DNA of 20,078 nucleotides from contig NW_003151255.1 in assembly GCF_000003605.2 (NCBI RefSeq), positions 602,528 to 622,605 of the forward strand, given 5' to 3'. This document shows, piece after piece, positions 4,501-20,078 of this stretch. The number at the start of each line of letters is the position of its first letter. Position 1 is the stretch's first letter. The notes beneath the pieces were generated by a model. That model made no database searches, was not told where the DNA came from, and saw only the letters and a list, made by a program, of their open reading frames with translations. A program made the position numbers and the translations under genes. Source of the stretch: Saccoglossus kowalevskii (lineage: Eukaryota; Hemichordata; Enteropneusta; Harrimaniidae).

Positions 4501-4710
4501 TCAAGATATATGGCTAGATTGTATTATGAACACTTTTTCATTGTATAACGTATCAATCTTTTAAAATTAGAATGTGAACTACATTTGCCAGCGTGTATAT
4601 TTCAATATGTAAACACGTAAATAACCATGGTTACATAGAGGTCAGGTCAAGTTATGTTAACGTGGGACTAATCGCAAATTAAACTGAGTTGGTTCACTCT
4701 AACACTACAA

Positions 4711-4758
4711 ACCATTTTCTTAACAGACATCAAGAAGTAGACAGTGAAGAAACTGAAA
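4711..4758 (+). promoter_or_regulatory. Splice-acceptor-like site and 5' leader just before the start codon
   Basis: A pyrimidine-rich run followed by AG at 4725-4726 resembles a 3' splice site, leaving a 32-nt leader before the ATG at 4759. An in-frame TAG at 4738-4740 shows that the reading frame cannot extend upstream, and AAA precedes the ATG, giving the favoured A at -3. The site could be the end of a 5'-UTR intron or a spliced-leader trans-splice acceptor. The sequence alone does not decide, and the AG could also be fortuitous. Confidence 0.45.
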
Positions 4759-4869
4759 ATGTTGTCATATATGTTGATTGTATGCTTCCTTGTCGATTAT
4801 GCCAAGTTCTCGAGTCATGCAGAAGAAACACACAGAGAGCGACGAGACGTCAATACTGATCTGTTTGAT
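4759..4869 (+). CDS. Exon 1: signal peptide and short basic propeptide
   Basis: It encodes residues 1-37. Residues 1-21 form a signal peptide: a Met-Leu-rich hydrophobic stretch (LIVCFLV, 6-12) and small residues near SSHA, with likely cleavage after A21. This is followed by a charged segment with RERR at 26-29, matching the furin-type R-X-R/K-R processing site. The start is supported by an in-frame stop 18 nt upstream and an A at -3; a second Met lies at codon 5. The exon ends GAT|GTAAGT, a strong donor in phase 0, and joins the EGF exon without changing frame. Phase 0 is unusual here, because secretory leaders of shuffled proteins often end in phase 1. Confidence 0.75.
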
Positions 4870-7800
4870 GTAAGTTGACACAATTTGTACTATGATACAC
4901 AATTGATATTAATTTATCCTCATACGAATCGTGTAATGAATCGACCATTTAATTGTTTTAGGACTCATTCTACCTATTAAAAGAGAACAATATCGAGATT
5001 CACCCAGTGTGGATTTAATCCACGCACTTCACAATGTCGTCTGTAAATGTGTAAACATGGCAGTTAAAATGGACGCAGATTCTACTAGATTAATATTTGT
5101 TCTCCAATTTATGGTAAACGATATGTCTCTTATTATAGCAGTGCAGTGTTTAAAAGACAATTCTGTAAACGTGAACATTATTTAACCACCGTGATATTAT
5201 GCTAACTTAACACATTTTAAAATAAGTTATATATTGTATTAAGTGACATGTGGCAATTATATTGTACAAATTGTTGTGTTCTCGCCACACCATATTTTTC
5301 GCCGTTTATGAATTCTATTGTCCTCATTAGTGCGCTTAGTTTATTATTGCGTTGGTTTTATATTTTTGACGAGTTAATTTATAAAAACTTTAAACACTAA
5401 ATTGAGCGGGAATACCACTCCGTATTGTATTGTCAGTGCATGTTATATACATCTTTTATTCATCGCAGAAGTAACGACTCACGTGGGACATTACTTAATG
5501 GCTGTCGCTATACGTTACCAAGAAGTCATTGTGAGTGAATCAAAAAACACGCCTTGCGCACTGATTCTAATCGTTACTCATTGCCAAAGGAAGTGATTTA
5601 GAAAGGCGGCGTGAAAAAAATTTTTTGCAAAATAGCTTCTGCTTTCTTCTAACTAAATCGCCGTTCGTTTTTAAATGCGTTCCACTTATTTATAGTTGTG
5701 ATGTTCGAAGCGATGAAATCAGCGAATGCTTAATCTTTTCCGAAATCGGACAGGAATTTGTCTCTAAATCGAACAATGGATGAGTTTGCAGTATGTATAG
5801 TACAATTGTTATTGTGTGTGTTGCCTAGTAACAATCTCATTTGTCATTCATCCTCTGGTTATCTCAGACATATTTGTAATCAAATAGTTTAATAGCACAG
5901 GTGAATAACGTATGCAATGGGACGAAATACAGGACACAATGCCTCTAAGGACGGTAGTTGTCGCGCAGCTCATCTTCGAATTTATTTATGTATGTGTAAG
6001 TCGCCATGTAAATCGCTATGCTTAACTTCATATCGTTTTATTCTTCATTCCAATTTGAATTTCTTTCACGTCGTGATAATATTATGGACTCTAGTTTAAT
6101 GAAATTGAATAGTCTAACTGAAATTGACCAATGTATGACATATGATACGTTTGAAACATATAGTGGGGTTCCTTGCATCCACCCTGTCGTAATTGTATCT
6201 AGATTTGTGACAACCTCGTCTCAACCTCATCTAATTTAAACTGAGTGATTCACACAGCAGTTACAAATAAGACGGTTGTACATTTACGGCTAGTAATCAC
6301 TAGCATCGAAATCGAGATAGTTGTAGAAAATGATGATTATTAGTTTTGATTAACAAGTAAAGATCAGAGACTTAAATTGCCTCTTCATGTAATGTCCCTG
6401 CCCCAAGAGCTGTGGCTTATGATGTTGACGAACAAATGACTCTGATTTTATGAAACGTACTATTAATTTTTAAAATAGATGAATTACTATTTTTTTAGTT
6501 TCGTGAATTATATATCATACTGCACAAATAACAGAACCCGAAGTAATTTCCAAAAGTGATTTCACAAGATAAAATGTTCACAGAAGGGCGTGGTTAGTAT
6601 TTGTAAGTACATAACATCATGATTTCTCGGGCATTTATGCATATAGGTTGAATATATCTAGCTTAGTGTTTTACGGTGCAAATAGGCGATGTATTTCCAA
6701 ACCGACACTGTCGCAGATGTTGAATTTAACCCGTAATGTGTACTGTAAGCACCTCACATGCGAAAATCGAAGACGAATTGATTGACTCGGCATTCGAGTA
6801 AGGTTACAATACAAATTACAAGATGGCATTGTATCATCGATTTTATTGACATCACGTGAAATGTGATGTTATTATAATTTAAGGATTGGCATTTAATAGA
6901 GATGTATTAGATTATGGGCATGCTACAATGTATAACATTTTACAGCAAGTCTGATAAATCAAATTTACACGGTAATAATGATTTTGTAAGTATAAGTAAT
7001 GTGCATTGTTATAATAAATATCTTAGGTTGTAGTGCTTGGTGAAGGATTGTTTGTGTTTTTTTTAAGAATCGAATTTACATCAATCAGTATGAATAATCA
7101 GGATGATTCATGACAAAAAATATGTAAATATAACAATCGTACAATATCAATGATATTTACTAGACAAAATAATTATATTCATGATGAAATCAGTTTATGC
7201 ACACAAATAAACTTTTAAAATATACCCATACTAATTACTTACGCTACATGATAAAGACACTGTTTGAAATATGCGTTGTCCTTTGTAATTAATTACAATC
7301 ACAAATTCAGGATATTACAGTAAAGTATAAAACAAACATACCTAATAGAAAACCCACAATTCACCGAAATGCTATGTTTCAAAAAGGATATTATGTTACA
7401 TTAATATATTAGAACTAATGGATGTACTGACTCGCTAGAAAGCTGTAAAGCAGGGATATGGCATAGATAGGGTATTAGTATATGACCCGTATATGTGTTA
7501 AATTTTTATAGTAAATTGTATTTGGTAATCGCAAAGGTTAATTGAAATTGTCACGACTGTTTAATACATTTGATATAATTGTATGGTCACTCATATAGAT
7601 ATTGTTTATAGTCATTGTGATGATAATTTAATGTGAGTATAGCAGATATACTTGTAAATACTGGTTAACGCCAAGTTTGTTCATGCCTATATTCCCTGAT
7701 CACACTAATCTATATTGTGTTCAACAGACATGCGCCTCCATCACCGAAGACACGGGGAATCCCTGTGTAAATAATCCATGTCAACCACCAGCTGTATGTC

Positions 7801-9323
7801 ACACATCGTGTACTGAATTGGGATATATATGCCTGTGTCGTACTGATGTATTTACTGGTCCTAATTGTGACGTAGTGGATGTTAAAATTGGTAAGTTGGT
7901 GTACTACTACGGCAATTTATTTATCAGTTTAGCTTTTGTTTCACACATTTTTGACATATTTTTTACATTCCGAGTTTTTTTTACCCCCGATACTCATCAC
8001 TTTGCGCGACGACTCCGGTTTTCACGACTTTTTCCTCACTGAGGTATTGTATTCTTTATTTTTAGGGCAGTAAATGTGCTGATCAAAACAAAATTTATTG
8101 TTTTTTTTATTTTTATATAAAGCTCTCGCTAGTTGCAGTATGTCATAGTTAGACAACATCTTGGTGTTACCTACGTGGTATAATGTGACGCAACGACACA
8201 CCATGTATATACGTAACTAGTTCGTGTCACTTCATCTGCATGTCAACATCCAAATTCCGAAATCGGCTGAGTTCGCAAAAGCTGAAGAGTCTTATATAAA
8301 CCAGAATTATTATGCTGATATTTGTTATATACTAGACTGTATCATTACCTCAGGTATTTATTATTCTTTTTACAGCTGAAGATGGAAGTGAATGCTACTA
8401 CGAAGATGATGGCAGTGACTATCGCGGTTATCTTAACATTACGGAAAATGGAAGGACATGTCAAAACTGGTTAAAACAGTATCCACACGCCCACACAAGG
8501 ACACGTAAAAATTATCCTTCTTTTGGGCTTGGAGATCACAATAGCTGTCGCAATCCAGATAACGATTTGCGTCTATGGTGTTACACAACTGATCCATGGG
8601 CACAATATGAATACTGCGATGGTGTTCAACCAATGGAATATTGTACTAATGGTATGGTATTTACATTTTTTGGTCATTTTAATCAAACGAGTGAATCCTG
8701 AACGCGTCAACTTCAACAATTCATTCAAATAAATCCAATATTGTCTAAAAGTAAAAAAGAAATAATTTTAATAGCAAGAAATGTAAATTCATGTTATAAA
8801 TTGAGACGGAAATGTACCACTGTTGATATTTGAATCTTTGCTTCACAGTATTTACTCTAAACGCATTAACACATTATTTAACGAATAATCATTGCCAAAT
8901 AATGTGTGACTGATTTTTCGTGATATCACAATTGCCCGACAATATATTTATGCATGACTCGAATTTTTCAGTTGAGCAGTGACATGTTTCAGACGATGCC
9001 ATCATCGATTTATAATACATTTATCACAGAAGATATGTTCTGTGATATTCATGTCAATTTCATCACAAAAACGTTACTCATGCACATTTTGAAAGCAGAA
9101 TATTTGGGACAAACTTAAATAAAGAATTATAGAACTATTGCTGAAATAACCGAATACAGATAAATTGTGTCCTAATGCTATCGACGCCACGATGTTCTAT
9201 TTCACGAGGTCTTCGCTGTGGCGATTCGGGTCGTTCGTGATATTTGCAGCAATGCGTTACGATTTTGTTTTTTTATTTTTAACTGGAGGGGCTGAATAAT
9301 AATATAAAAAATACATAGGATCC

Positions 9324-9358
<35 letters not shown>

Positions 9359-12300
9359 TGTGGGGATGACGTGATAAATCGGGTTTCAGCGCGTACACGG
9401 TGTGGTGACCATGGACTAACACACTGATACAGTCGTGTTGTTCGATGATCATTGGGAAAATGCCGACAAAAAGCAGCCATTTTTAGAAATATCAACTTCT
9501 ACACGAGCTTAGAACCTATCCACAGTGAGGAAAGCTTATATTGGAATATCGATATATGCAAATCACTTCACTTTGTGAGTGAACTTGTCGTAGATAGTTT
9601 CCTTCGACGTTAGAATTTACCTAAATACATTCTACCCAAAACGGTGTCTTGCCACGAAAATTTTGATAATCGTTGTTCTCTTCGGGATTCACACAGTGCA
9701 GCTATTTTCTGCATTAGGCCTTCTGCCATGTTCAGATTTTGACCTTTTTCATTATCGAAACATCAACTATCCGTTATTAAGCATTTCTGTCCAGTACCCG
9801 TGAATTTAATCTATCGAGGCTTCCTTTTTCTTATTCGATTTTTTCACTTGTTTGAACTGCACTAATGGAGTTTTGCCTGGCTCATTGTAAAATGCGAGTT
9901 TTTGCTTGAATGACATTGTTTGTTGTTGATGCATGACCTCACATCGGTAGCATGTGTTCCTGTTTCGATGCATGTAATATAGGTGTATAGACGCTCATTG
10001 CATATTAACTACATGAAGCTTTAAACTGAGTTAATTAAACAATTGTTTCCATATTTTACGTGTCTACAAAAATATACTCATACCTATATTTTGTGGTATA
10101 TTTGCTCGTTCTCAAGAAACCATTTAAATCGAACATACGGTTATCTTTTTAATATCTTTTAAAAATCTCCTGTTCCATAATAGACATTAACGGACGTGTA
10201 ATCTGTAGTGTTGTTGTTGCTGTTGTTGTTGGGGAGGTGAAATAGATACACACTGTGCATATATGTCGTGACATACATACTAACTTATTCCAACAATGAA
10301 GTATTAAATAATGATTTTGTATACTTATAACGCGCGTAGGGGTCACAATAATTATGCAATATATTTAATATTTATAATATTTAATACATAATATTTATGT
10401 CGTGTACAGAATAATGAAGCTATAATACAAACTGAAAGAGCTCAATAAATTATTGATTTGCAAACCATTTCTAAATTTAACATTGATTACATGAAAACAA
10501 TAAAAATAATAAAATCATTAGGATTACTTAATCAAATATGGCTATGCGGTCAAATGAAAATTTCTAAAATATAATATTTGTGTCTCATTTCCCATGTTTG
10601 CTCATTAACAGAAATTCTTGTTCTTTTGACAGACCTATTATACTCGAATAATAAAAATAACATGAAGACAACACTGAACTAGGATTTCCAGGCTTACTAT
10701 AATTCTTTTAGTAATCTCGTTCTTATGAAATTGTGATTATGCCTATCAAAATTAGGCCACGACACAAAACATGGAATTACCTAAATCATAGATAAGACTT
10801 CAACTATTTGGGCAATCATATGTTAAATATAGTTTTCTAGTTGCAGTAACGAATAATTTACACTTACATGTTATCTTGCACTTTTAACTTTTCAGAACAG
10901 CCACCTAATATATCTTACATTGGGTGCTACCATCAGTGTGAGCATGGCAACTGGATTGCGATTTCACGGAGAAAGTTCACTCCGGGCAAATGTGTCAGAC
11001 ACTGTGCTAAATATGGTTTATTATTTGCATCAGTGAGAGTGAAAGATGAAGTTAAATGCTACTGTGATAACATGTATGACCGAACACGACCAATGGATGA
11101 ATCTGATTGTAGCACACCCTGTCCGGTTAAGAGGAACTACCTCTGTGGAGGCACGGACAGTGTATCTGTGTACTACACAGGAATACGTACGTTGTATGCC
11201 AACTACATCGTGAATATCGTGACATGATATGATATATAAACGTATTCTAGAAAGATATGTCGAATATTGACTAATCCCCTTTTCTTTTTATCATTTCATA
11301 GCTTATCCTAAACTAGACCTGTGTGGATTCGGGGATGAAATCGGATTACTTCTTAATTCCCAAACATGTTTATGGTTTTCAATGGAAGAAAAAACGTGGA
11401 TGGAATCTGAGCAGGACTGTGTTTTACGCGGTGGACATTTAACAAGAGTACAGGACAAGGTCACTCTGGTATGTCTTGTTATATATGATATTATAACAAT
11501 ATATACAGTAAAATATATATAAGTGACTTTTGTTAGTGTCTGTACCGTGTTATCATTAATACAACAACACTTTACTGAACGATTCATTAGTTCGTGTTAC
11601 GTGTAATATAATGATGAAATGTGAATATCAACGGGACGAGAGTGATATTTGCATATCTGCCATCGACGATTGGGTATTTTGATAATCGTGTCAGAGATAA
11701 CAAACATATGAAGTGTTCTCAAAGGAAAGACAAAATACAGAATGATAATGGGCAATAAAACATTGCAATAAAAATTGCATTGTCCAAATTTATTGAAAAA
11801 AACCTCTTTGATTATAAGGCAGCAACACCTTTTGTCGGCATCGCATAATACTTATTTTATGTTGTTTTTCGGACCACAGCAGAATTTAAATGTTTACATT
11901 GTATAGGGGTCCTTGTTTTAAGCTTGCTTGTGTGAGCGTGCATTCCTGTAATGAAGTGTTCTACTGTATAACAGTACTTTATTTGTTATGAAATGCATGT
12001 ATTTCGTCCTGTATTTAGTCTTTAACTGTAAGTGTTTTAATTATTATTATTACTTTGTCAATTAGATATATCTGTACAAATTGTATGAATGACATATCGT
12101 GTACCAACTCATGGCGTTCAATGAACTTAAAACAGATAACAGAAGCATTCGTAAACTGTTATTTTCATGAACTCCCTAACGTAAAGATAATGTATGAAAA
12201 ATCCATGCCTCCCATACATTTTATCCTATGAATTATTGACTTAAAAACCACGGATATAGTCACTATCATCAATAAGCCTTTTTGGACAATGGTTCAGAGA

Positions 12301-15300
12301 AAAACAGCTAAAAGCGTGCTCATTCATTATTTTGACCTTGTCAAACAACATTACTTTGAAATGAATCCATATTAAACCCGAATAGGATAATCTACGCATT
12401 GAACATGTGTCGCTTTTGTCATAGTATATATTTCTCATTCATTGCTTCGCAAAAATGTTAAGATGTATTAAGTCATGCAGCGTGAATTAGTAAAAGTATC
12501 ACCAACACAGATTTGGAGGAAAAACGTTGTTATTATTCTAAATGAAGTATTTCCAATATTACGCTCCCCTCACCAGGAAGAAAACTTTTCACGTGTTTTA
12601 TAGTCCAAATACAATACAATATCTATTGCTTACAGATCGGCTAGTTAGGTTTTAGGCATTTGAATCAGCGTTATTCAATCTGTACTTAGGTATCTAGTAC
12701 GAGTGTTCAACCAGTAGCGTTGATTATACTGACAAACATCGACAGGCCACTCATAGCGACGTATTCAACGCGTATAAAATACCTTGTTTACATGAAATTC
12801 GAACACGCGCTGATGGAACCATTTACATTTTGCTTTTATTTCCACGTAATAGATATTGTAATTTAATACACAAATAATATGAATATTTTCTTAGGAGGCA
12901 ATTGTCTACCATATTTTCGAAGCGTATAGTGGGTTGGAAACTTATTCGTACTGGATTGGTGCAAATGACTTAGAGCACGAAGACCAATTCATCTACAACG
13001 ACATTGATGAGACAGTAGTTGACACAGAATCAGACTTGTTTTACAGTGGTGAGCCTAGCAATTCAGGGGACAATGGACAACAGTGCCTACGTAAGTGACC
13101 AATTCAGTAATGTCAGTACGCAACTTTCATATTTTATATTACAATGTCAACAATCTTTTTTTGGAATATACACTATGAAGTCTAATACTGATGAAAATCT
13201 TCTGACTAACGACTTCGAAATCGTTTTTACAGTTCTGCTGAATGAGTTTGGATTTCGGATTGATGATTTTTGGTGTGATATTCCGCAACGATATATATGT
13301 ACACCTAATAACATCGTAGGTAAGGATATTTCCTATTTTATTACGTTAATTGTACTATACACATTGCTTTTATATTGTCACAAATATATTTATATAAAGC
13401 CCCACAATATTTGAACATTGCCCGTCACTTCTGAAGTATCTCACATATTTACTTCTCGAATAAGTTGAATTACAGACAAATGGAAGTGAAAAGCCAAAAT
13501 TCAGCAGTTTTTACGCCAAATTTGACATTATAAATTGTACTCTCGAAATTATGAATAACAAACACGTGAATGAGTCTATACAGGGTTTTTAATTCTGATT
13601 GCACATTATAAGTGCATGAGACGCAAACGTTTCGATTATTCAGAGACCACTTAAATAACTTGGAGTTGAATACAAATAGGTAATGATGCGTCAATTTCAA
13701 AGCTGAGATTGACAGTGTTCTGTCTATATGGTAACAGAATTTCTAATCATGCGTTTTTATTCAATCACTGAATATTTCTGATTATAGTATACATGAAATA
13801 AATGTCATCAAAACAACAACATATAACAATACAGGACATGTTGTTTACGCATATATTCGGTAGGAAACCCTTTACCACAATGGAGATCTGATCAACGCTG
13901 TGGTGGGGATTGGGAGGTGTACGACGGCCAGCTAGCCCAATGTAATCCTAACGGAGCGTATCCCTGTTGTTCACCTTATCAATGGTGTGGCATTACTGCG
14001 GAACATTGCGAGTGTCCTTCGTGTATTGATTACAGAATGGTTTATGGCGTGAACAGCACTATTGTGGACGGTACTTTTTAACATAGTAGTAGTAGTAGTA
14101 TTTATAAGTAGCGATTGTGATATTTTTCAGAGCAGTAGAAATAAAACATATAGTAGTCCACAATATATATATCAAAACTACCACTAATTAATTAAAATTA
14201 ATTAATAATCCAATAAAACTAACTAGGTGAAAGTAGTCAAAGTAGTCAGCGATCATATAGAATACATTTAACAATCTTATGATGAGAGGAGAGAAAATAC
14301 ACTCTCACACATGAGTCATAAATATATTAATTTAATAATCATGCAAAGAAAATGTGTCAGCACAAGACGTGCTCAAGTCAGGCAGATTATTTCAACTTTT
14401 CACTGTATTTTGGTTCAAATTGTGGCTTATTCAGTATTTCCTACCTTGTTGTACAATAACATCGTCTATCAATTTAAATTAGCTTAAACATTATTTATCG
14501 TTAGGATTTTGAGTTAATTTTATTAGAATATTGTGCTATAATTAATTATAATATATTCCAATTAATTAGTCATATTCAAACTGAAAATTCATTGTTCAGA
14601 CTTTAAACAAATTTCTTGTCAACGTAAATTTCTGAAATACAGAATGATGAATCATTCGATGCAAAAGGGTGACAATCTTTGAAAAATCTGCTCTATACGG
14701 GCATAACCTGAGAAAACCTGAGTTACATTTGTTTTACTTGGTTCTTATGCATCGAACACACAGGTACCCTTTCTAGCAAATGATTGGACAGATAGTCATA
14801 GCTTAAACCAACACCTGTATTTTCATTGGATTTTAGAGGTTTTGGTAATGACATCACCACTGACTAGAAGGATTCTTGGCTTTAGAACAAATATTAAGAA
14901 TTGAAATTATTTCATTTAGCAATTTCCTCTACTTATAGTTGTTAAATTTCTGGAATGCTATTCAGGGGGATATATATTTGTGTTTGGTACCATGAAAAGT
15001 CATACTGTTGCCATTATTAGTGGCAGGTTAGACATGATTTGTCACTAAATTGACTGGGCTTTAACCTAAACAATCTAATAATTATTTGTATATATGGATG
15101 AATCAGGGATGAATGCACAATAAATATAAACATTTAATTGAACGAGTACTGCTATATTTACTGCCAAAAATAATTTCATGACATATCATATCATTATTTT
15201 CAATTTTGAAATCAATTATTTAAACATGCTAAAATTACGGCAAGCTATTCGCATTCTCTGTTTAAGCGTTAGAACTTGATAGTAGTATTAGTAGAATTGT

Positions 15301-18300
15301 TGATTCGTTGGACAAGAACAACTAGAATAAATCACTCCAACAAAACAGTAATCTTACGTTATGGTTTTGAACACAACATGACGGTGAATGGTAAAATGAC
15401 GATACACTGAACATTGTGTTTTGTAGCCTCTTCAGATGATGGTTGTGGTGTTGGTGGAAATGGCGCTTTACATAATGGAACTTGTTTTCATCTCATCAAA
15501 GAGGTTCATAATTGGGATTATGCAAATTTGGCATGTGCCCGAGTAGGTGGACGACTTGCGACGATTAAAGACAGAGATACTCAGGTAATTCTGAAAACAA
15601 ATAAAGTGATGTATATTGTGAAAATATAAATATAAGTAAAAGGTCTAACATTTTTCTATCAATTTTACTCCGTAACTTCGGTCCAGCTATATGTAAACAA
15701 TGATTGACCGTCACATCTTCATTTCAAGTCAAATGCAGAATCCACTACGAATGCTTTATCGTAGTTTGTTTATAATATTACACGTTTATTTTAGTTTACT
15801 TTTTAATCTCGTCACACCTCAAATATATTGCATGATTTTTTTTACGGATTTTTACGGCAAAATGTCGTGCATGCCCCCGGCCGATAGAATGCAATTGAGT
15901 ACCTCTTCAATGAATGCTGACCCAAGTCGTTTTCCCACTATTTATACTAAGCAATTACACAGGAACATAGTCAGGAACAGGAACATAGTCAGTCGGGACC
16001 TTTGAAACACACATAATCAAAGCCTTCCCTGCTTATACACAGCGTTACAATTTGTTGATGAAACGTGATATCTTCTAAATAACGTATTGCGGAAGCAATA
16101 TGCTTTGTTGTCGGGAACGCAAGCGATAGTTCTCCATCAACGGTGCTGATGTGCGTTGTGTGATATCGAGCGACGTAAATTGCCTTATTTCTCGTTTATT
16201 GCGTGAATAATTTATCTAATCATTTGTCGCCAGCACACAACATTGCGGTAATGGGACACATTAAAGCTTTCACAAAAAAAGCTGCGTTCCTTGTTATTGA
16301 TTAAATAATTTACAGAACTAGAAGTAGATGGATTCGAAAATTATGATTGTCATTTGCTTTCAATAAATTCATTTAAATACTAGTTGTTTATCAGACGTCA
16401 AGCACTGCTGATTGGGAGTAGCGGAAGTTGGTGGTTTGGACTACATTATGACAGTGAAATGAATGGAATGGTGTACACAGACCAATCACCTGTTCAGAAT
16501 GAAGCCATGTTTACCAGCCAGATTCCCCAATCTGGTAATTGCACAGGTACGTATGGTATAGCGTCAATATTGCCAAGGATAGGGACCATATTTGTCCTAA
16601 AATGTCACACAAAAGGAATGTTTTATTGTTGGTAGCTATGGACGTTGCTTTGTTGCTAGGACCACGCCCATCTACCCATCTGTTTGCATACCTGTTCCTT
16701 TAATGGTTAGCTTGCAATAAGTCGAATATGTTTTGATTGAGGTCACGTGACCACCCTATCATTTTAAATATTTTGTACAATACGACACTCACACCATTCT
16801 ATACAGACAATATTCCAAAATATGTACACAACAAATATAAAATAAAACATTCAGTTAAATTAAAAGTTATATTTTTTTTAAATAACGTTCATGCGGATAT
16901 TTTAGATTTTTTTTTTCACCAATTTGAAGGCACAAACACTTTGGGCCAGAAGATATGGGAATTAGCTACATAATCTAATAGCGGCGATGCGTTTCTCGTG
17001 TCGCATCATAACTATACTAATCATACATATAGAAAATACAACTATATGCAGTATTTGAAATTCAAGCCACGTAACACATTTGCATATACATTTTGCACAA
17101 ATACAAACACATGATAATACACTACCCCGGCAAAACATTGATACAATCCACAATACAACAACCCATCTCGCATGTACATGTTCATCAACAACAACCAGAT
17201 ACGGGAACATCTACCTCATCAAAACATCAATAAAAAATACTAAATAAAATACTTAACCTTCATTTGAAATGCCGCTTGGCAAACGAACAATTCCATCAAA
17301 ACTTGCCTTCAGGCAACAGGAAAAATAACCGGAATTTCTGATTTAGAGCCAAAACCATTTTTTATAAAAAATAAAAAAGCTAAACGAACTCGAGAAAAAA
17401 TTGATTTATTTTTCACATGGTGAGAACATGATTTAAAAACATGTTTTGTAACCCTCTTTTAAACGCTAATATGGTTTTATCACTTGTTTCATTGTGGTGA
17501 GTGTGGTATATTTTCTGTTGGATACCTTCATTGAATTGCTGTTACTCGTGTTTAGTTTCAAGGACATTGAGATACGTTAAGTATCTTCCCTTACGTTAGC
17601 TCCATGACAACATATACTTTAAAGATACATAAAACAAATATTTTATAAAATATAAACTAGCAATTTTAGCATTAAAAGTAGCATGTATGTGCCATTATCG
17701 TCCGACCTTATGTTGTGTTATTCTTCTGTATACCGTCCCACAGCTTCACAACCCTATCAGTTTAACGCTGGTCATATATAGTTAATTATAATATTGTGTT
17801 TTCATCTATGTCATTTCAGTATTAGACTATGAATATAACTATTTCTGGAAACAGACCAGCTGCGCTGACAATAATTTCTTCATTTGCCAAGAAGGTATGT
17901 CACCACAAGAGCAATTTTTAAGCCAAGTTTCCCCAATTGATTATACACTGTTGTATTGAAACTATATTTTGAATATGGAAAAATATATATTTTGAAACAA
18001 CCTACGTCATATAGATAAGTATTCATAAGGTTGAGCAATGACGAGTAATGGTTTCTAGTCAATCATTCATGCAATGTTAAGGAGTATATATCATGTGTTT
18101 AACTTGTTATTTTAAATATGGAATTTGAATTGTTTATTAGGAAGATTCACAACGTAAATATACATTTGCGTTTAAAACATTGTTGTGCTATCATTATTTT
18201 ACGCTTTCGTCATATTTGCGAATTCCAAACATATTTTATCAATATCCTATGCATGAAAACGTTATTTTTATTTATGAGACACGGTCTGAAATTTAGTTGT

Positions 18301-19603
18301 GAGCCGATAGATCTGGTGAATTTATCGCAATAATGTACCTTGCTCCAGCCTTTGAATCGAGAGATTTGCCGAAGAGTTAACTGTTATCTGAATATTTACT
18401 TCCAGTTGATATAAGTCGCCACCATGATATAGTTTCTTCATTCATAATGAAATGCAAGTTAAGAATTTTATACAAACGAAGTGATGTAAATGTACACATA
18501 GCAATCAAAGTAGTTTAGACTTAAGTGTTGACAAAACGAGTTCACAATTCTAACGAGAAAAGATGAGTATCCTCAATGAAATCACTAAATTTTCTTAAAG
18601 TAATGAAATAATTGTAATTCGGTTACAGATATCGATGCTTCTACTGGATGTCCATACGGTAAGCAATTCGACACTAACAAAGACAATGTTACAAGACAAA
18701 GTTTGATCTAAACACGGCATTTACCTTAGATATTATATGATATTGTATTGTTAAGTTCTAAACAAACAATCAATGTTGCAAACGACCAACAGAAGTCAAT
18801 GTGTGATATTTTTGAATTGTAGGATGGGAAATGGCAGAAGACAACAAGTGTTATTTATATTTAGGAGACTCGTTTTCTTTGAACTTTTCAGATAGCTTTC
18901 AGCATTGTGAAATGTGAGTATAATATTGCTCTTCTAATGATACATTTCGACATAAATTTTGCAAGTGCAGACAGGCGATAATTTATTTTTCAATAGTCAC
19001 ATATCAGGTGACTCGTAGTTTTTTCGGAAACAATATCTGTACATCTACCTGTTTTTTTTGTGGGTCTAATTATCTAATCATATATATATATATATATACT
19101 ACTTTTCTACTAATAGGGCTGGGGCATTATTGGTTAACATAAGTACCGAACAAATAAACCAGTTTGTTGTTGATCTTATACAGAATTCATGTATTGGCTG
19201 TAGTGGTTATGCCTGGATCGGTAAGTGATATATAGTTCTTAAGAATTATAGAACATAGTTTCATAATAATGAAACGTCAAATATGTCGCTGGGTTATCTG
19301 AGGAAAGAAGCAAAAAACAATTACACTGTGTCTGACTCTGTTATACCTGATATGACATAATAACAACAAGTAAGAGATTCAAGTCACACATTTCACATGT
19401 CACCCGTGATATTCATCCATGTTGTATTTTATATTCCAGGTAATTTAGTTGATGATCCAAATGTCCAATTTGAAAACTGGGCGGTCGACAATATTACATT
19501 TACGGAGGAGTGTTCATCCATTGATATTACAGAAGGGGTTTGGTATACAATGAATTGTACAGAAACTCTTTCATTTGTGTGTTCTATGTCAGCCTTTATA
19601 TAG
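4759..19603 (+). CDS. Multi-exon gene for a secreted EGF-kringle-WSC-lectin-hevein-lectin-lectin protein
   Basis: This is the hand-spliced coding model: join 4759-4869, 7728-7890, 8376-8651, 10896-11186, 11302-11468, 12895-13090, 13233-13319, 13864-14070, 15427-15610, 16395-16546, 17820-17894, 18629-18658, 18823-18913, 19117-19220, 19440-19603. The sum is 2,298 nt, or 765 residues plus TAG. All introns are GT-AG and all phases agree; only the donor at 15611 is weak. Domain order by residue: signal peptide 1-21, RERR 26-29, EGF 50-84, kringle 98-181, WSC 191-277, CTLD1 288-424, hevein-like 442-484, CTLD2 506-634, CTLD3 644-759. No membrane segment or GPI-like tail is visible, so the product should be secreted. 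Several N-glycosylation sequons are present (N112, N188, N494, N516, N609, N667, N684, N729, N750). Kringle-WSC is known from Kremen, but I recognise no named family with this whole order. A glycan-binding or recognition role is inferred from the modules. Exon borders are predictions without transcript support. Confidence 0.85.
4870..7727 (+). other. Intron 1 (about 2.86 kb)
   Basis: It runs from the strong donor GTAAGT at 4870 to CAACAG ending at 7727. I see no convincing extra exon. A 45-nt candidate (4962-5006, phase 0 to 0) with a weak donor is discussed in the findings. Short open frames near 5402-5596 and 5917-6239 have no recognisable similarity. A 7-bp inverted repeat (ACATCAC/GTGATGT) lies at 6849-6869. 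Confidence 0.65.
7728..7890 (+). CDS. Exon 2: EGF-like module
   Basis: It encodes residues 38-91, entered in phase 0 and left in phase 1 (ATTG|GTAAGT). The six EGF cysteines are C50, C55, C61, C72, C74 and C84, with the typical ending C-L-C followed by a TGPNC element. Two additional cysteines, C39 and C65, make eight in all and could form a fourth disulfide. No calcium-binding EGF signature (D-X-D/N-E before the first cysteine) is seen. EGF modules are extracellular disulfide-stabilised spacers or protein-contact modules, and the specific partner is unknown. The acceptor has only a modest pyrimidine tract, so the exact left border is slightly less certain than the others. Confidence 0.82.
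7891..8375 (+). other. Intron 2 (485 nt)
   Basis: Phase-1 intron with donor GTAAGT and a clean acceptor, TTATTCTTTTTACAG. It holds T-rich runs and no coding signal that I can recognise. Confidence 0.75.
8376..8651 (+). CDS. Exon 3: complete kringle domain
   Basis: It encodes residues 92-183 with phase-1 introns on both sides. The six kringle cysteines are at 98, 120, 149, 160, 172 and 181. Family hallmarks are clear: YRG (107-109), NITENG then CQNW (120-123), PHAH, SCRNPD (148-153), LWCYTTDP (158-165) and YEYCD. Kringles are triple-loop disulfide modules that bind proteins, in some cases through lysine. The lysine-site acidic pair (D153, D155) and aromatic W159 are kept, while the position matching plasminogen kringle-4 Arg71 is Gln168 and the second Trp is Tyr169. 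N112-I-T is a glycosylation sequon. The direct continuation into a WSC domain recalls the Kremen ectodomain. Confidence 0.93.
9022..9047. repeat. Perfect 10-bp inverted repeat with 6-nt loop
   Basis: Arms TATCACAGAA (9022-9031) and TTCTGTGATA (9038-9047) are exact reverse complements around the loop GATATG. It lies inside intron 3. No miRNA-length stem or transposon terminus is evident, so its role is unknown. Confidence 0.75.
9326..9355. repeat. (TA)15 microsatellite
   Basis: A 30-bp perfect TA dinucleotide array, the longest simple repeat in the window. Its length is likely to vary between individuals. Confidence 0.92.
10209..10231. repeat. GTT-rich trinucleotide tract
   Basis: GTT units interrupted by one GCT, within intron 3. 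It is simple-sequence DNA with no coding support. Confidence 0.7.
10896..11186 (+). CDS. Exon 4: WSC domain
   Basis: It encodes residues 184-280 with phase-1 introns on both sides. The pattern matches WSC: YIGCY (191-195), FTPGKCVRHC (211-220), the central FASVR...CYC (227-240), DCSTPC (254-259), YLCGG (265-269) and the ending SVYYTG. Cysteines lie at 194, 198, 216, 220, 238, 240, 255, 259 and 267. C198 is an extra one beyond the usual eight and could be unpaired or pair with another module. WSC domains are known from yeast cell-wall sensors, polycystin-1 and Kremen, and are thought to bind carbohydrate. Only about nine residues separate it from the last kringle cysteine. N188-I-S is a sequon. 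Donor TAC|GTACGT. Confidence 0.93.
11302..11468 (+). CDS. Exon 5: first part of C-type lectin domain 1
   Basis: It encodes residues 281-336, entering in phase 1 and leaving in phase 0 (CTG|GTATGT). It carries the long-form N-terminal cysteines C288 and C303, then CLWF, TWMESEQDC (C320, first core cysteine) and GGHLTRVQD, the usual strand-helix-helix opening of a C-type lectin fold. The acceptor TTTTTATCATTTCATAG is good. It continues in exons 6 and 7. Confidence 0.92.
11469..12894 (+). other. Intron 5 (about 1.43 kb)
   Basis: Phase-0 intron interrupting CTLD1 after the second helix starts; the acceptor is ATTTTCTTAG. It is AT-rich, and I recognise no gene, RNA or mobile element in it. Confidence 0.72.
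12895..13090 (+). CDS. Exon 6: middle of C-type lectin domain 1
   Basis: It encodes residues 337-401, phase 0 to phase 1. It completes the second helix (EAIVYHIFEAY), then the WIG core motif as YWIGAND (355-361), and the long loop ending GEPSNSGDNGQQCL with core cysteine C400. EPS at 389-391 occupies the position of the EPN/QPD sugar-specificity motif, so part of the calcium/sugar site may persist. Donor CTAC|GTAAGT is strong. Confidence 0.92.
13233..13319 (+). CDS. Exon 7: end of C-type lectin domain 1
   Basis: It encodes residues 402-430, phase 1 to phase 1. It holds FRIDDFWCDIP with core cysteine C416 and the closing YIC (C424). IDD stands where many sugar-binding members have WND, keeping one acidic side chain. 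The 142-nt intron before it and the TTTTTACAG acceptor are clear. All core disulfide partners of CTLD1 (320-424, 400-416) and the long-form pair (288-303) are therefore present. Confidence 0.92.
13320..13863 (+). other. Intron 7 (544 nt)
   Basis: Phase-1 intron, donor GTAAGG. The acceptor is the TAG ending at 13863: using the nearer upstream ACAG (ending at 13834) would create an in-frame TAG right before the hevein-like module. No other content is recognised. Confidence 0.7.
13864..14070 (+). CDS. Exon 8: hevein-like (chitin-binding type 1-like) cysteine module
   Basis: It encodes residues 431-499, phase 1 to phase 1. The core runs RCGG (442-445), QCNPNG (456-461), PCCSPYQWCG (464-473), TAEHCEC (475-481) and C484, followed by IDYR. 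The order C, C, CC-S-x3-W-CG-x4-H-C-x-C-x2-C closely resembles hevein/WGA chitin-binding modules, including the adjacent cysteine pair, serine and aromatic residue next to CG that frame the sugar site. Eight cysteines are present (443, 457, 465, 466, 472, 479, 481, 484). Classical hevein domains are known mostly in plants and fungi, so binding of N-acetylglucosamine polymers is a reasonable inference here but not shown. N494-S-T is a sequon. The donor GACG|GTACTT is moderate. Confidence 0.85.
14085..14100. repeat. (AGT)5 trinucleotide repeat
   Basis: Five perfect AGT units immediately after the intron 8 donor. Simple sequence without coding role. Confidence 0.8.
14185..14204. repeat. AT-only palindrome
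   Basis: Arms TAATTAATT and AATTAATTA flank an AA centre. Such palindromes are frequent by chance in AT-rich DNA, so little weight is placed on it. Confidence 0.5.
15427..15610 (+). CDS. Exon 9: first part of C-type lectin domain 2 (3' border uncertain)
   Basis: It encodes residues 500-560 plus two bases. Entry is phase 1 after TTTTGTAG. It shows the long-form cysteines C506 and C519 (GTCFHLI), NWDYANLAC (C536) and GGRLATIKDRDTQ, a textbook C-type lectin start. The best donor, CAG|GTAATT at 15585, matches the phase-0 position used in CTLD1, but joining it to the next exon gives a stop nine codons later. Extending to AT|GTATAT at 15611 keeps the frame and gives a second helix of about the right length. 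The 15610 border is thus chosen for frame, not for donor strength. A missed small exon or a one-base sequence error are alternatives. The border at 15427 is firm. Confidence 0.72.
15611..16394 (+). other. Intron 9 (784 nt in this model)
   Basis: It ends GTTTATCAG at 16394. It contains an imperfect tandem of an 18-nt unit (15961-15996) and locally more CpG-containing DNA near 16060-16190. The 101-codon open frame at 15700-16005 has no recognisable similarity and is regarded as chance. Confidence 0.6.
15961..15992. repeat. Short direct repeat, 18-bp period
   Basis: The 14-mer AGGAACATAGTCAG occurs at 15961-15974 and again at 15979-15992, separated by GAAC. It lies in intron 9 and may be replication slippage or part of a decayed element. 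Confidence 0.8.
16395..16546 (+). CDS. Exon 10: middle of C-type lectin domain 2
   Basis: It encodes residues 561-611 and leaves in phase 1 (ACAG|GTACGT). It holds the WIG-type core as WWFGLHY (573-579), then a loop ending SGNC with core cysteine C610. There is no EPN or QPD motif, so this domain has probably lost calcium-dependent sugar binding. The proper frame requires a preceding exon ending in phase 2; no in-frame acceptor for a phase-0 entry exists between the upstream stop at 16381-16383 and the WW motif. The right border falls at the same lectin position as in CTLD1. Confidence 0.82.
16547..17819 (+). other. Intron 10 (about 1.27 kb)
   Basis: Phase-1 intron, donor GTACGT, acceptor CTATGTCATTTCAG. 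It has A- and T-rich runs and short open frames on both strands without similarity. Nothing else is recognised. Confidence 0.7.
17820..17894 (+). CDS. Exon 11: end of C-type lectin domain 2
   Basis: It encodes residues 612-636, phase 1 to phase 1, donor GAAG|GTATGT. It supplies YFWKQTSC (core cysteine C626) and FFIC (C634) closing the fold. The WND position reads FWKQ, without calcium ligands, consistent with the missing EPN motif upstream. CTLD2 cysteines pair as 506-519, 536-634 and 610-626 by family rule. Confidence 0.9.
17895..18628 (+). other. Intron 11 (734 nt)
   Basis: Phase-1 intron between CTLD2 and the linker exon, acceptor TTCGGTTACAG. It is AT-rich with no recognisable content. 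Confidence 0.7.
18629..18658 (+). CDS. Exon 12: 30-nt linker exon leading into C-type lectin domain 3
   Basis: It encodes residues 637-646 (acidic DIDAST, then GCPY). It is flanked by TTACAG and G|GTAAGC and is phase 1 on both sides. The CPYGW junction with the next exon is the standard start of long-form C-type lectin domains, with C644 pairing with C656, which strongly supports this small exon. Being symmetric, it could be skipped without a frameshift, at the cost of one lectin disulfide. Confidence 0.85.
18823..18913 (+). CDS. Exon 13: first part of C-type lectin domain 3
   Basis: It encodes residues 647-676, phase 1 to phase 2. It begins GWEMAEDNKCYLYLG (C656) and reaches the first core cysteine C675 in FQHCEM. 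The donor AAAT|GTGAGTA is good. N667-F-S is a sequon. Confidence 0.9.
19080..19098. repeat. (AT)n microsatellite
   Basis: About nine AT units in intron 13, ending 18 nt before exon 14. Length variation here could touch the branch-point/acceptor region. Confidence 0.85.
19117..19220 (+). CDS. Exon 14: middle of C-type lectin domain 3
   Basis: It encodes residues 677-711, phase 2 to phase 1. It shows AGALLVNIS, the amphipathic second helix INQFVVDLIQ and YAWIG (708-712), the core WIG motif. An added CIGC pair (702, 705) lies between helix and WIG and is not part of the canonical disulfides. N684-I-S is a sequon. Donor ATCG|GTAAGT is strong. Confidence 0.91.
19440..19603 (+). CDS. Exon 15: end of C-type lectin domain 3 and stop
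   Basis: It encodes residues 712-765 and TAG, entered in phase 1 after TTTTATATTCCAG. It contains ENWAVDN, core cysteines C736 (EEC), C751 (MNC) and C759 (FVC). EPN and WND are absent, so classical calcium-dependent sugar binding is unlikely. The protein stops six residues after C759, leaving no membrane anchor. N729-I-T and N750-C-T are sequons. A 69-codon open frame on the other strand is only a shadow of this exon. Confidence 0.92.
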
Positions 19604-20078
19604 AAAAAAATACCACTCAGCACAGTATTTAACAACATTGCAACTCAAGATATCTATCGCACCATATCCAATGTTTGTGTAATAATATACGGTGAGAATA
19701 TATGTTCAAGATCTTTGAAATGATCAAGCTACATAGTTTATATATAAAAAAGAAGCATATTTCAACGTCAACATCAACGTCACATTAAGCGTTTCAGTCT
19801 TTGTATAGAAGTTCAACAACTGTGGATTACGTAAGGGTTTACGTAGTGAATATGATAGCATCCAGGCGATGTCAAACAAGTGGAATAACATCTAAAGGGA
19901 CGATAAGTAATAATGAATTACAACTTTTCAACATACAAAAATTATGGAGACCTTAAAGGCATAAACACACATGAAGGATGCTATGAAAAAGAAAATAAAA
20001 GCACAGAACAAAAGCAGTGTCGAAAAGAACATTATGTTTACATGTAAGGAAAAAAGCCCAAAAGCGCAAGCGAAGCTA
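19604..20078 (+). other. Probable 3' UTR and downstream flank
   Basis: AT-rich sequence after the stop with no further coding signal. Transcription probably ends near the AATAAA at 19994-19999, giving a 3' UTR of roughly 400 nt. Confidence 0.55.
19994..19999 (+). terminator. Candidate polyadenylation signal AATAAA
   Basis: This is the canonical hexamer about 390 nt after the stop. Nearer variants such as AATATA (around 19684) could also be used; the true cleavage site is not visible. Confidence 0.45.

Follow-up and report, generated by a model that had tools for sequence, protein, structure and literature searches.

The stretch of DNA analysed here, 20,078 nucleotides long and referred to as the window, raises the question whether one gene encodes a secreted protein built in the order EGF-kringle-WSC-CTLD-hevein-CTLD-CTLD and, if so, whether this combination stands alone and what it would bind. 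Fifteen exons on the + strand, separated by GT-AG introns of up to 2.9 kb, were joined into a single open frame of 760 residues plus stop, running on the + strand from the ATG at 4759 to a stop ending at 19603. An earlier note on this DNA had claimed a continuous frame of 765 residues; one continuous frame between the ends chosen there was recovered, with the length corrected to 760. Neither a premature stop nor a frameshift nor a faulty splice dinucleotide occurs in the 2,283 coding bases of the window copy. Both unused frames are interrupted by stops in 14 of the 15 exons, the used frame being stop-free until the final stop; exon 12, of 30 bases, is open in all three frames. The seventh codon upstream of the ATG is an in-frame TAG. 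The features of the window are as follows, P2 and P3 denoting related copies introduced further below.

4759..4869, + strand: exon 1, start codon, signal-peptide-like stretch and RERR (furin-like) propeptide end, residues 1-37 (frame, GT donor; similar exon in P3)
7728..7890, + strand: exon 2, EGF-like module with 8 cysteines, residues 38-91 (frame, family profile; no Pfam match)
8376..8651, + strand: exon 3, kringle, residues 92-183 (Pfam Kringle 1.8e-20, module alone)
10896..11186, + strand: exon 4, WSC domain, residues 184-280 (Pfam WSC 2.9e-12, module alone)
11302..11468, + strand: exon 5, CTLD1 part a (frame, Pfam)
12895..13090, + strand: exon 6, CTLD1 part b, EPS instead of EPN (frame, CLEC6A alignment)
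13233..13319, + strand: exon 7, CTLD1 part c, IDD instead of WND (frame, CLEC6A alignment)
13864..14070, + strand: exon 8, hevein-like chitin-binding module of the amphioxus PGRP3 type, residues 431-499 (PDB 4zxm and 4z8i matches)
15427..15584, + strand: exon 9, CTLD2 part a (frame, Pfam)
16384..16546, + strand: exon 10, CTLD2 part b (frame, Pfam; acceptor the same in P2 and P3)
17820..17894, + strand: exon 11, CTLD2 part c (frame, Pfam)
18629..18658, + strand: exon 12, 30-base exon with linker and first cysteine region of CTLD3 (frame; kept in P2 and P3)
18823..18913, + strand: exon 13, CTLD3 part a (frame, Pfam)
19117..19220, + strand: exon 14, CTLD3 part b (frame, Pfam)
19440..19603, + strand: exon 15, CTLD3 part c and stop (frame, Pfam)
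19994..19999, + strand: possible polyadenylation signal AATAAA, 391 bases past the stop (sequence)

The six module borders from EGF/kringle through CTLD2/CTLD3 are in phase 1, whereas exon 1 joins the EGF exon in phase 0; shuffled extracellular modules are typically recognised by phase-1 borders at either end. From module order and frame only, we infer a single transcript, and one gene would encode all seven modules. The stretch 4691-4758 contains TTTTCTTAACAG, a sequence like a strong splice acceptor whose last base is 4726, 32 bases upstream of the ATG; an upstream non-coding exon and trans-splicing are possible readings of it. Intron 3 contains a (TA)15 tract at 9326-9355. The window contained no Rfam or tRNA match, and NCBIfam likewise yielded none.

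Behind the signal/propeptide region, the modules follow as EGF-like, kringle, WSC, CTLD, hevein-like, CTLD and CTLD. Pfam analysis of the whole 760-residue protein revealed Kringle (2e-18), WSC (2.5e-10) and Lectin_C (9.3e-27, three stretches). Taken alone, each CTLD exceeded the Pfam cut-off (8.8e-10, 3.2e-12 and 2.1e-8), with PF00059 scores of 39.7, 47.6 and 35.3 bits at a cut-off of 22.6, and the PLA2 receptor, among solved-structure sequences, aligned across residues 515-707. The EGF-like module gave no Pfam EGF match at E ≤ 1; a five-sequence family profile of it matched the EGF of coagulation factor VII (E 1.1e-4), and the exon fits the six-cysteine EGF order with two extra cysteines (8 in total), its assignment as EGF-like being likely but not certain. 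The hevein-like module reached 20.1 bits against Pfam Chitin_bind_1 (PF00187), below the gathering cut-off of 27.8. The seven modules were borne out in the order given by the earlier note, through Pfam for kringle, WSC and three CTLDs, a PGRP3 match for hevein and the family profile for EGF; the Pfam run on the spliced protein that it had proposed as a check recovered the former five, missed the EGF and left the hevein module under the cut-off.

A whole-protein search of the genome (572 Mb, 4,830 contigs; otherwise, only PDB sequences were compared) yielded at least 62 matches at E ≤ 0.01, with 59 of 312 candidates scored. The relatives considered here are listed below.

P2, contig C1599, 266987-250201, minus strand: near copy
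P3, contig C4124, 665448-648012, minus strand: exon 1, hevein, CTLD2 and CTLD3
P4, contig C4124, 692229-686141 (end not fetched), minus strand: matches to EGF, kringle, CTLD1, hevein and CTLD2
P6, contig C4732, 101615-103816: EGF, kringle, WSC and the start of a CTLD, then N (locus L033, all N)
P7, contig C4732, 126407-132144, plus strand: EGF, kringle, WSC, part of CTLD1, CTLD2 and CTLD3
P10, contig C3324, 319865-329128, plus strand: matches to EGF, kringle, WSC and three CTLDs

The stretch fetched for P2 did not extend to exon 1, and exon 8 went undetected; all 13 remaining window exons were recovered in order, in frame and at equal length, without indels and with the splice dinucleotides kept. 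Identity of these shared exons to the window is 87-99%, about 94% overall, as against 74-92% for the blocks containing introns (n = 15; 12 of them under 85%), i.e., the exons are better kept than the introns. The dN/dS of window versus P2 was 0.48 (bootstrap 0.33-0.73, 644 codons), with module values of 0.74 for the kringle, 0.74 for CTLD1, 0.52 for WSC, 0.48 for CTLD3, 0.44 for EGF and 0.16 for CTLD2. Between CTLD1 and CTLD2 of P2, where the sequence contains no N, the hevein exon had no match at E ≤ 0.01, and window positions 13620-14313 are replaced by about 1.86 kb. Since P2 still shows constraint without the hevein module, chitin binding is not the shared function of the family. The segment replacing the hevein exon also holds a 42-base inverted repeat (L027:6063-6190), the arms of which show 98% complementarity and lie 44 bases apart; it is perhaps a mobile-element trace.

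P7 and P10 are more divergent, with amino-acid identities of 33-57% (collinear matches of at least 24 residues) and 31-65% (collinear matches over 20 residues), respectively. Twelve of the 13 exons from EGF to CTLD3, the hevein exon not counted, could be placed in P7 with both end phases as in the window; no last CTLD1 exon was placeable with the window's phase, and P7 may carry a defect there. Pfam analysis of the P7 pieces revealed kringle, WSC and three Lectin_C stretches, CTLD1 being partial only. No hevein exon was detected in P7 in the about 425 bases between the last placed CTLD1 exon and CTLD2 (E ≤ 1), the sole hevein match being chance-level and on the opposite strand, nor in P10 in the about 300 bases between the last CTLD1 match and CTLD2 (E ≤ 0.1). 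A few kb before the window, on the minus strand, degraded pieces resembling CTLD2 and CTLD3 of the family are found (L009; C4124:598424-596834); L010 and L011 are all N, and the 20 kb past the window are thus unreadable.

The hevein exon of P3 carries a TAG stop; the region 655752-663151 of C4124 reads N, with EGF, kringle, WSC and CTLD1 of P3 being unreadable there. As this stop-bearing copy also gives a dN/dS of 0.44 versus the window (0.24-0.92, 359 codons), a value below 1 is no proof of a working gene. P4 has no WSC match in the fetched stretch, retains three of the six kringle cysteines, has a hevein exon that is 2 bases short and a stop in CTLD2, and offers no clean kringle-CTLD junction; it therefore looks like a pseudogene. 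Its EGF exon (L029; C4124:692229-692067) is 97.7% identical to that of the window over 131 bases, the other exon matches being 72-75% identical (one 29-base piece, 86%), which looks like gene conversion.

A CTLD2 tree of six sequences and about 105 residues separates P7 and P10 from a group formed by P4, the window, P2 and P3 (support 0.970), in which the window pairs with P3, apart from P2 (support 0.867). If P7 and P10 serve as the outgroup, the most parsimonious account, as far as this six-sequence tree suggests, is that the window's subgroup gained the hevein module once and that P2 lost it. EGF-kringle-WSC-CTLDx3 would then be the core of an older family in this genome, in one subgroup of which a symmetric phase-1 exon encoding the hevein module would have been inserted after CTLD1 and ahead of CTLD2, and later lost from the near copy.

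Among solved-structure sequences, the hevein-like exon matched amphioxus PGRP3 (PDB 4zxm, E 7.8e-12; 4z8i, E 1.2e-10), with the 4zxm match spanning residues 5-62 of the 69-residue exon and plant lectin-C giving only E 0.095. The hevein-like module of the earlier note is, thus, present, its kind being corrected to the animal PGRP3 type. According to the PGRP3 study, the chitin-binding domain is hevein-like with four disulfides, its putative chitin site comprises Ser51, Trp53, Trp55 and His62, and it binds chitin beads, which a W53A/W55A double mutant does not (PMC4610682). The window reads Ser, Tyr, Trp and His at these places, three of the four being identical and the fourth still aromatic; Trp53 and Trp55, the tryptophans mutated together in PGRP3, correspond to Tyr469 and Trp471. 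We regard it as plausible that the module keeps a chitin site. BbtPGRP3 (4zxm, 4z8i) carries one chitin-binding domain fused to a PGRP amidase, and the window resembles it in the 'WRSD.RCG' start, the eight cysteines of the module, the kept places of Ser51, Trp55 and His62, and the placement of a shuffled hevein-like module within an extracellular protein. It differs in the change of Trp53 to Tyr and in having six other modules, without a Pfam PGRP match, instead of the amidase.

Calcium-dependent sugar-binding C-type lectins carry EPN or QPD plus a WND motif. Alignment of CTLD1 to CLEC6A, which we take to be Dectin-2, revealed EPS for EPN and IDD for WND, and neither canonical calcium/sugar motif is present in the sequence of CTLD2 or CTLD3; CTLD1 of P2 keeps EPN, but has IDD. 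Because no CTLD of the three keeps the canonical EPN/WND site, classical calcium-dependent sugar binding is unsupported. The lysine site of kringles, as in plasminogen, comprises Asp-x-Asp, aromatic residues and Arg. Compared with plasminogen kringle 1, the window kringle shows D-N-D, W, Y and Y, but Gln replaces Arg; the acidic pair reads D-N-G, with Arg, in P2, one acid is left in P10 and none in P7. Lysine binding by the kringle was rejected as a shared function of the family, the acidic pair not being kept. The WSC domain contains nine cysteines, the one at residue 198 being tyrosine in P2. Kringle and WSC can be protein-binding instead of glycan-binding.

Hydrophobicity peaks at residues 2-12, the highest 19-residue value of the protein being at the N-terminus; the chain ends directly after CTLD3 and contains nine N-glycosylation sequons. 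The N-terminal signal peptide and RERR furin site are putative, and the protein is probably secreted and soluble. We propose, at what we consider an even chance, a secreted multivalent recognition protein that would bind chitin or peptidoglycan via its hevein module. This module would attach to chitin or to N-acetylglucosamine polymers such as peptidoglycan, which appear to be the best-grounded ligands, and the CTLDs, kringle and WSC would most likely contribute additional binding to proteins or glycans, mostly without calcium; in this way, the protein might tag or cross-link a chitin- or peptidoglycan-bearing target, be it a microbe, a food particle or own matrix. The soluble, multivalent glycan recognition put forward earlier is supported in part: it fits the plausible chitin site, but the three CTLDs lack canonical calcium/sugar motifs.

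The main rival, which we judge rather improbable, is a structural or adhesive protein of extracellular matrix or mucus, the modules of which would link matrix proteins and, by way of the hevein module, chitin-containing own tissue, without microbe recognition. A matrix protein could equally well have nine sequons and many cysteines, the absence of canonical sugar motifs from the CTLDs agrees with it, and most of these modules also occur in matrix and adhesive proteins; however, the nearest hevein relative among solved structures is an antimicrobial amidase, and the family is duplicated with decaying copies (P4, and P3 by its hevein stop), a pattern common in immune families, though not specific to them. 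The mannose receptor family and phospholipase A2 receptor likewise have several CTLDs per chain, together with cysteine-rich and FN2 domains and a membrane anchor, whereas the window protein has three CTLDs and no anchor was seen.

Recognition through the hevein module must also be weighed against an extracellular regulator of the Kremen kind, in which kringle-WSC would bind a Dickkopf-type or growth factor and the CTLDs would be protein-interaction modules. As in Kremen1/2, the kringle is directly followed by WSC, and the whole window protein aligns to Kremen1 across residues 95-277 (5.2e-13). Kremen consists of kringle-WSC-CUB plus a membrane span (PMC3927609, PMC5014086), the kringle-WSC pair of Kremen1 forms the Dkk interface (PMC5014086), and Wnt antagonism needs the intact kringle-WSC-CUB triplet together with membrane attachment (cited in PMC5014086). 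The Dkk interface favours such a regulator and the last point counts against it, as the 760-residue window protein gave no Pfam CUB match at E ≤ 1 and no membrane span was seen by 19-residue hydrophobicity. Unlike Kremen, it has an EGF before and CTLDs after kringle-WSC. WSC alone matched two chains of the solved-structure sequences at E ≤ 1, neither named Kremen, which implies that the Kremen match is mostly kringle. The comparison with Kremen drawn in the earlier note holds for the kringle-WSC order and is otherwise weak, and a Kremen-like role is, in our view, very unlikely.

Still less probable is that the window locus is a recent pseudogene of the family. Decay of family members is evident from P3, with its hevein stop, and P4, and the similar dN/dS of P3 would allow it; against this stand the undisturbed 2,283 coding bases, without early stop, frameshift or bad splice dinucleotide, and the better conservation of exons than introns versus P2. 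The least probable alternative, two neighbouring genes (EGF-kringle-WSC-CTLD1 and hevein-CTLD-CTLD) spliced into one, might be entertained given introns as long as 2.9 kb, but the phases fit at all junctions, and P2, P7 and P10 keep the same exon types in succession on one strand across the proposed break, without the hevein exon.

The modules themselves are frequent in this genome, where 86 kringle matches (77 above the cut-off), 43 WSC matches, at least 147 matches to C-type lectins (150 of the 480 candidates having been scored) and 42 matches to the hevein-like module, the window's own included, were found. On contig C120 (877-11350), eleven hevein-type modules succeed one another on a single strand, spaced about 1.03 kb apart and with identical scores for ten of them, which reads as a tandem array of a chitin-binding-type exon. 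A second mosaic family is represented by L037 (C1505:76001-83500) and L038 (C3618:133501-138501), each comprising, in one row on one strand, two kringles, a laminin-G/pentraxin-like, a hevein-type and a PAN-type module and a CTLD-type stretch; of the laminin-G and PAN peptides, Pfam tests covered only those of C1505 and C3618, respectively, and the hevein-type module of C3618 gave no Pfam match at E ≤ 0.1. Both CTLD matches contain one internal stop each in six-frame reading, and no WSC or EGF match occurred in the stretches fetched. Like the window gene, these rows combine kringles with a hevein-type module of that kind and a CTLD-type stretch on a single strand; unlike it, they have two kringles, a laminin-G/pentraxin-like module before the hevein-type one and a PAN module after it. 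In place of the two PGRP3 tryptophans, this second mosaic carries Ser, or Gly-flanked Ser, and Gln in its hevein-type modules, which, unlike the window's, thus lack the aromatic pair; these replacements imply that not every module of this type binds chitin. A CTLD piece located upstream on C3618 shows EPNNGG and LND, closer to the canonical calcium site. On contig C4830 (L036), a single cox1 match reads TGA as Trp and has AAA at a Lys place, with no AGA/AGG in the codons counted; ATA is found at places that are Ile in other animals. Such a code speaks against amphioxus, vertebrates and tunicates, in which ATA stands for Met, and against echinoderms and flatworms, in which AAA stands for Asn, and would suit an acorn worm, among others. 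The hevein-like domain of amphioxus PGRP is common in this genome and is joined there to kringles and C-type lectin modules; if the source is an acorn worm, this domain type is not confined to amphioxus.

A literature search, outside of which most subscription papers lay, gave no description of the order EGF-kringle-WSC-CTLD-hevein-CTLD-CTLD, nor was it found in the available passages of PMC3927609, PMC5014086, PMC10855680 and PMC4610682, and the WSC, C-type lectin and kringle domains appeared nowhere together in the literature searched. Unnamed database entries with the same module order may well exist. The view that the combination is unlike any known agrees with this in so far as no paper with the order was found, but the protein is one member of a family instead of a lone case. 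The building blocks and exon shuffling are known; the combination and the variable hevein module are, as far as seen, new.

Lacking antibodies, invertebrates presumably broaden what they recognise by reshuffling extracellular modules. Tentatively, and with more doubt than confidence, we suggest that the window represents an undescribed secreted family with an EGF-kringle-WSC-CTLDx3 scaffold, among the near-identical paralogs of which a symmetric phase-1 exon binding chitin or peptidoglycan would be swapped in and out, so that the target range would shift by exon gain and loss and not by point mutation. The window and P2 form a natural near-copy pair with and without the chitin-binding module, with which the effect of this module can be asked directly.
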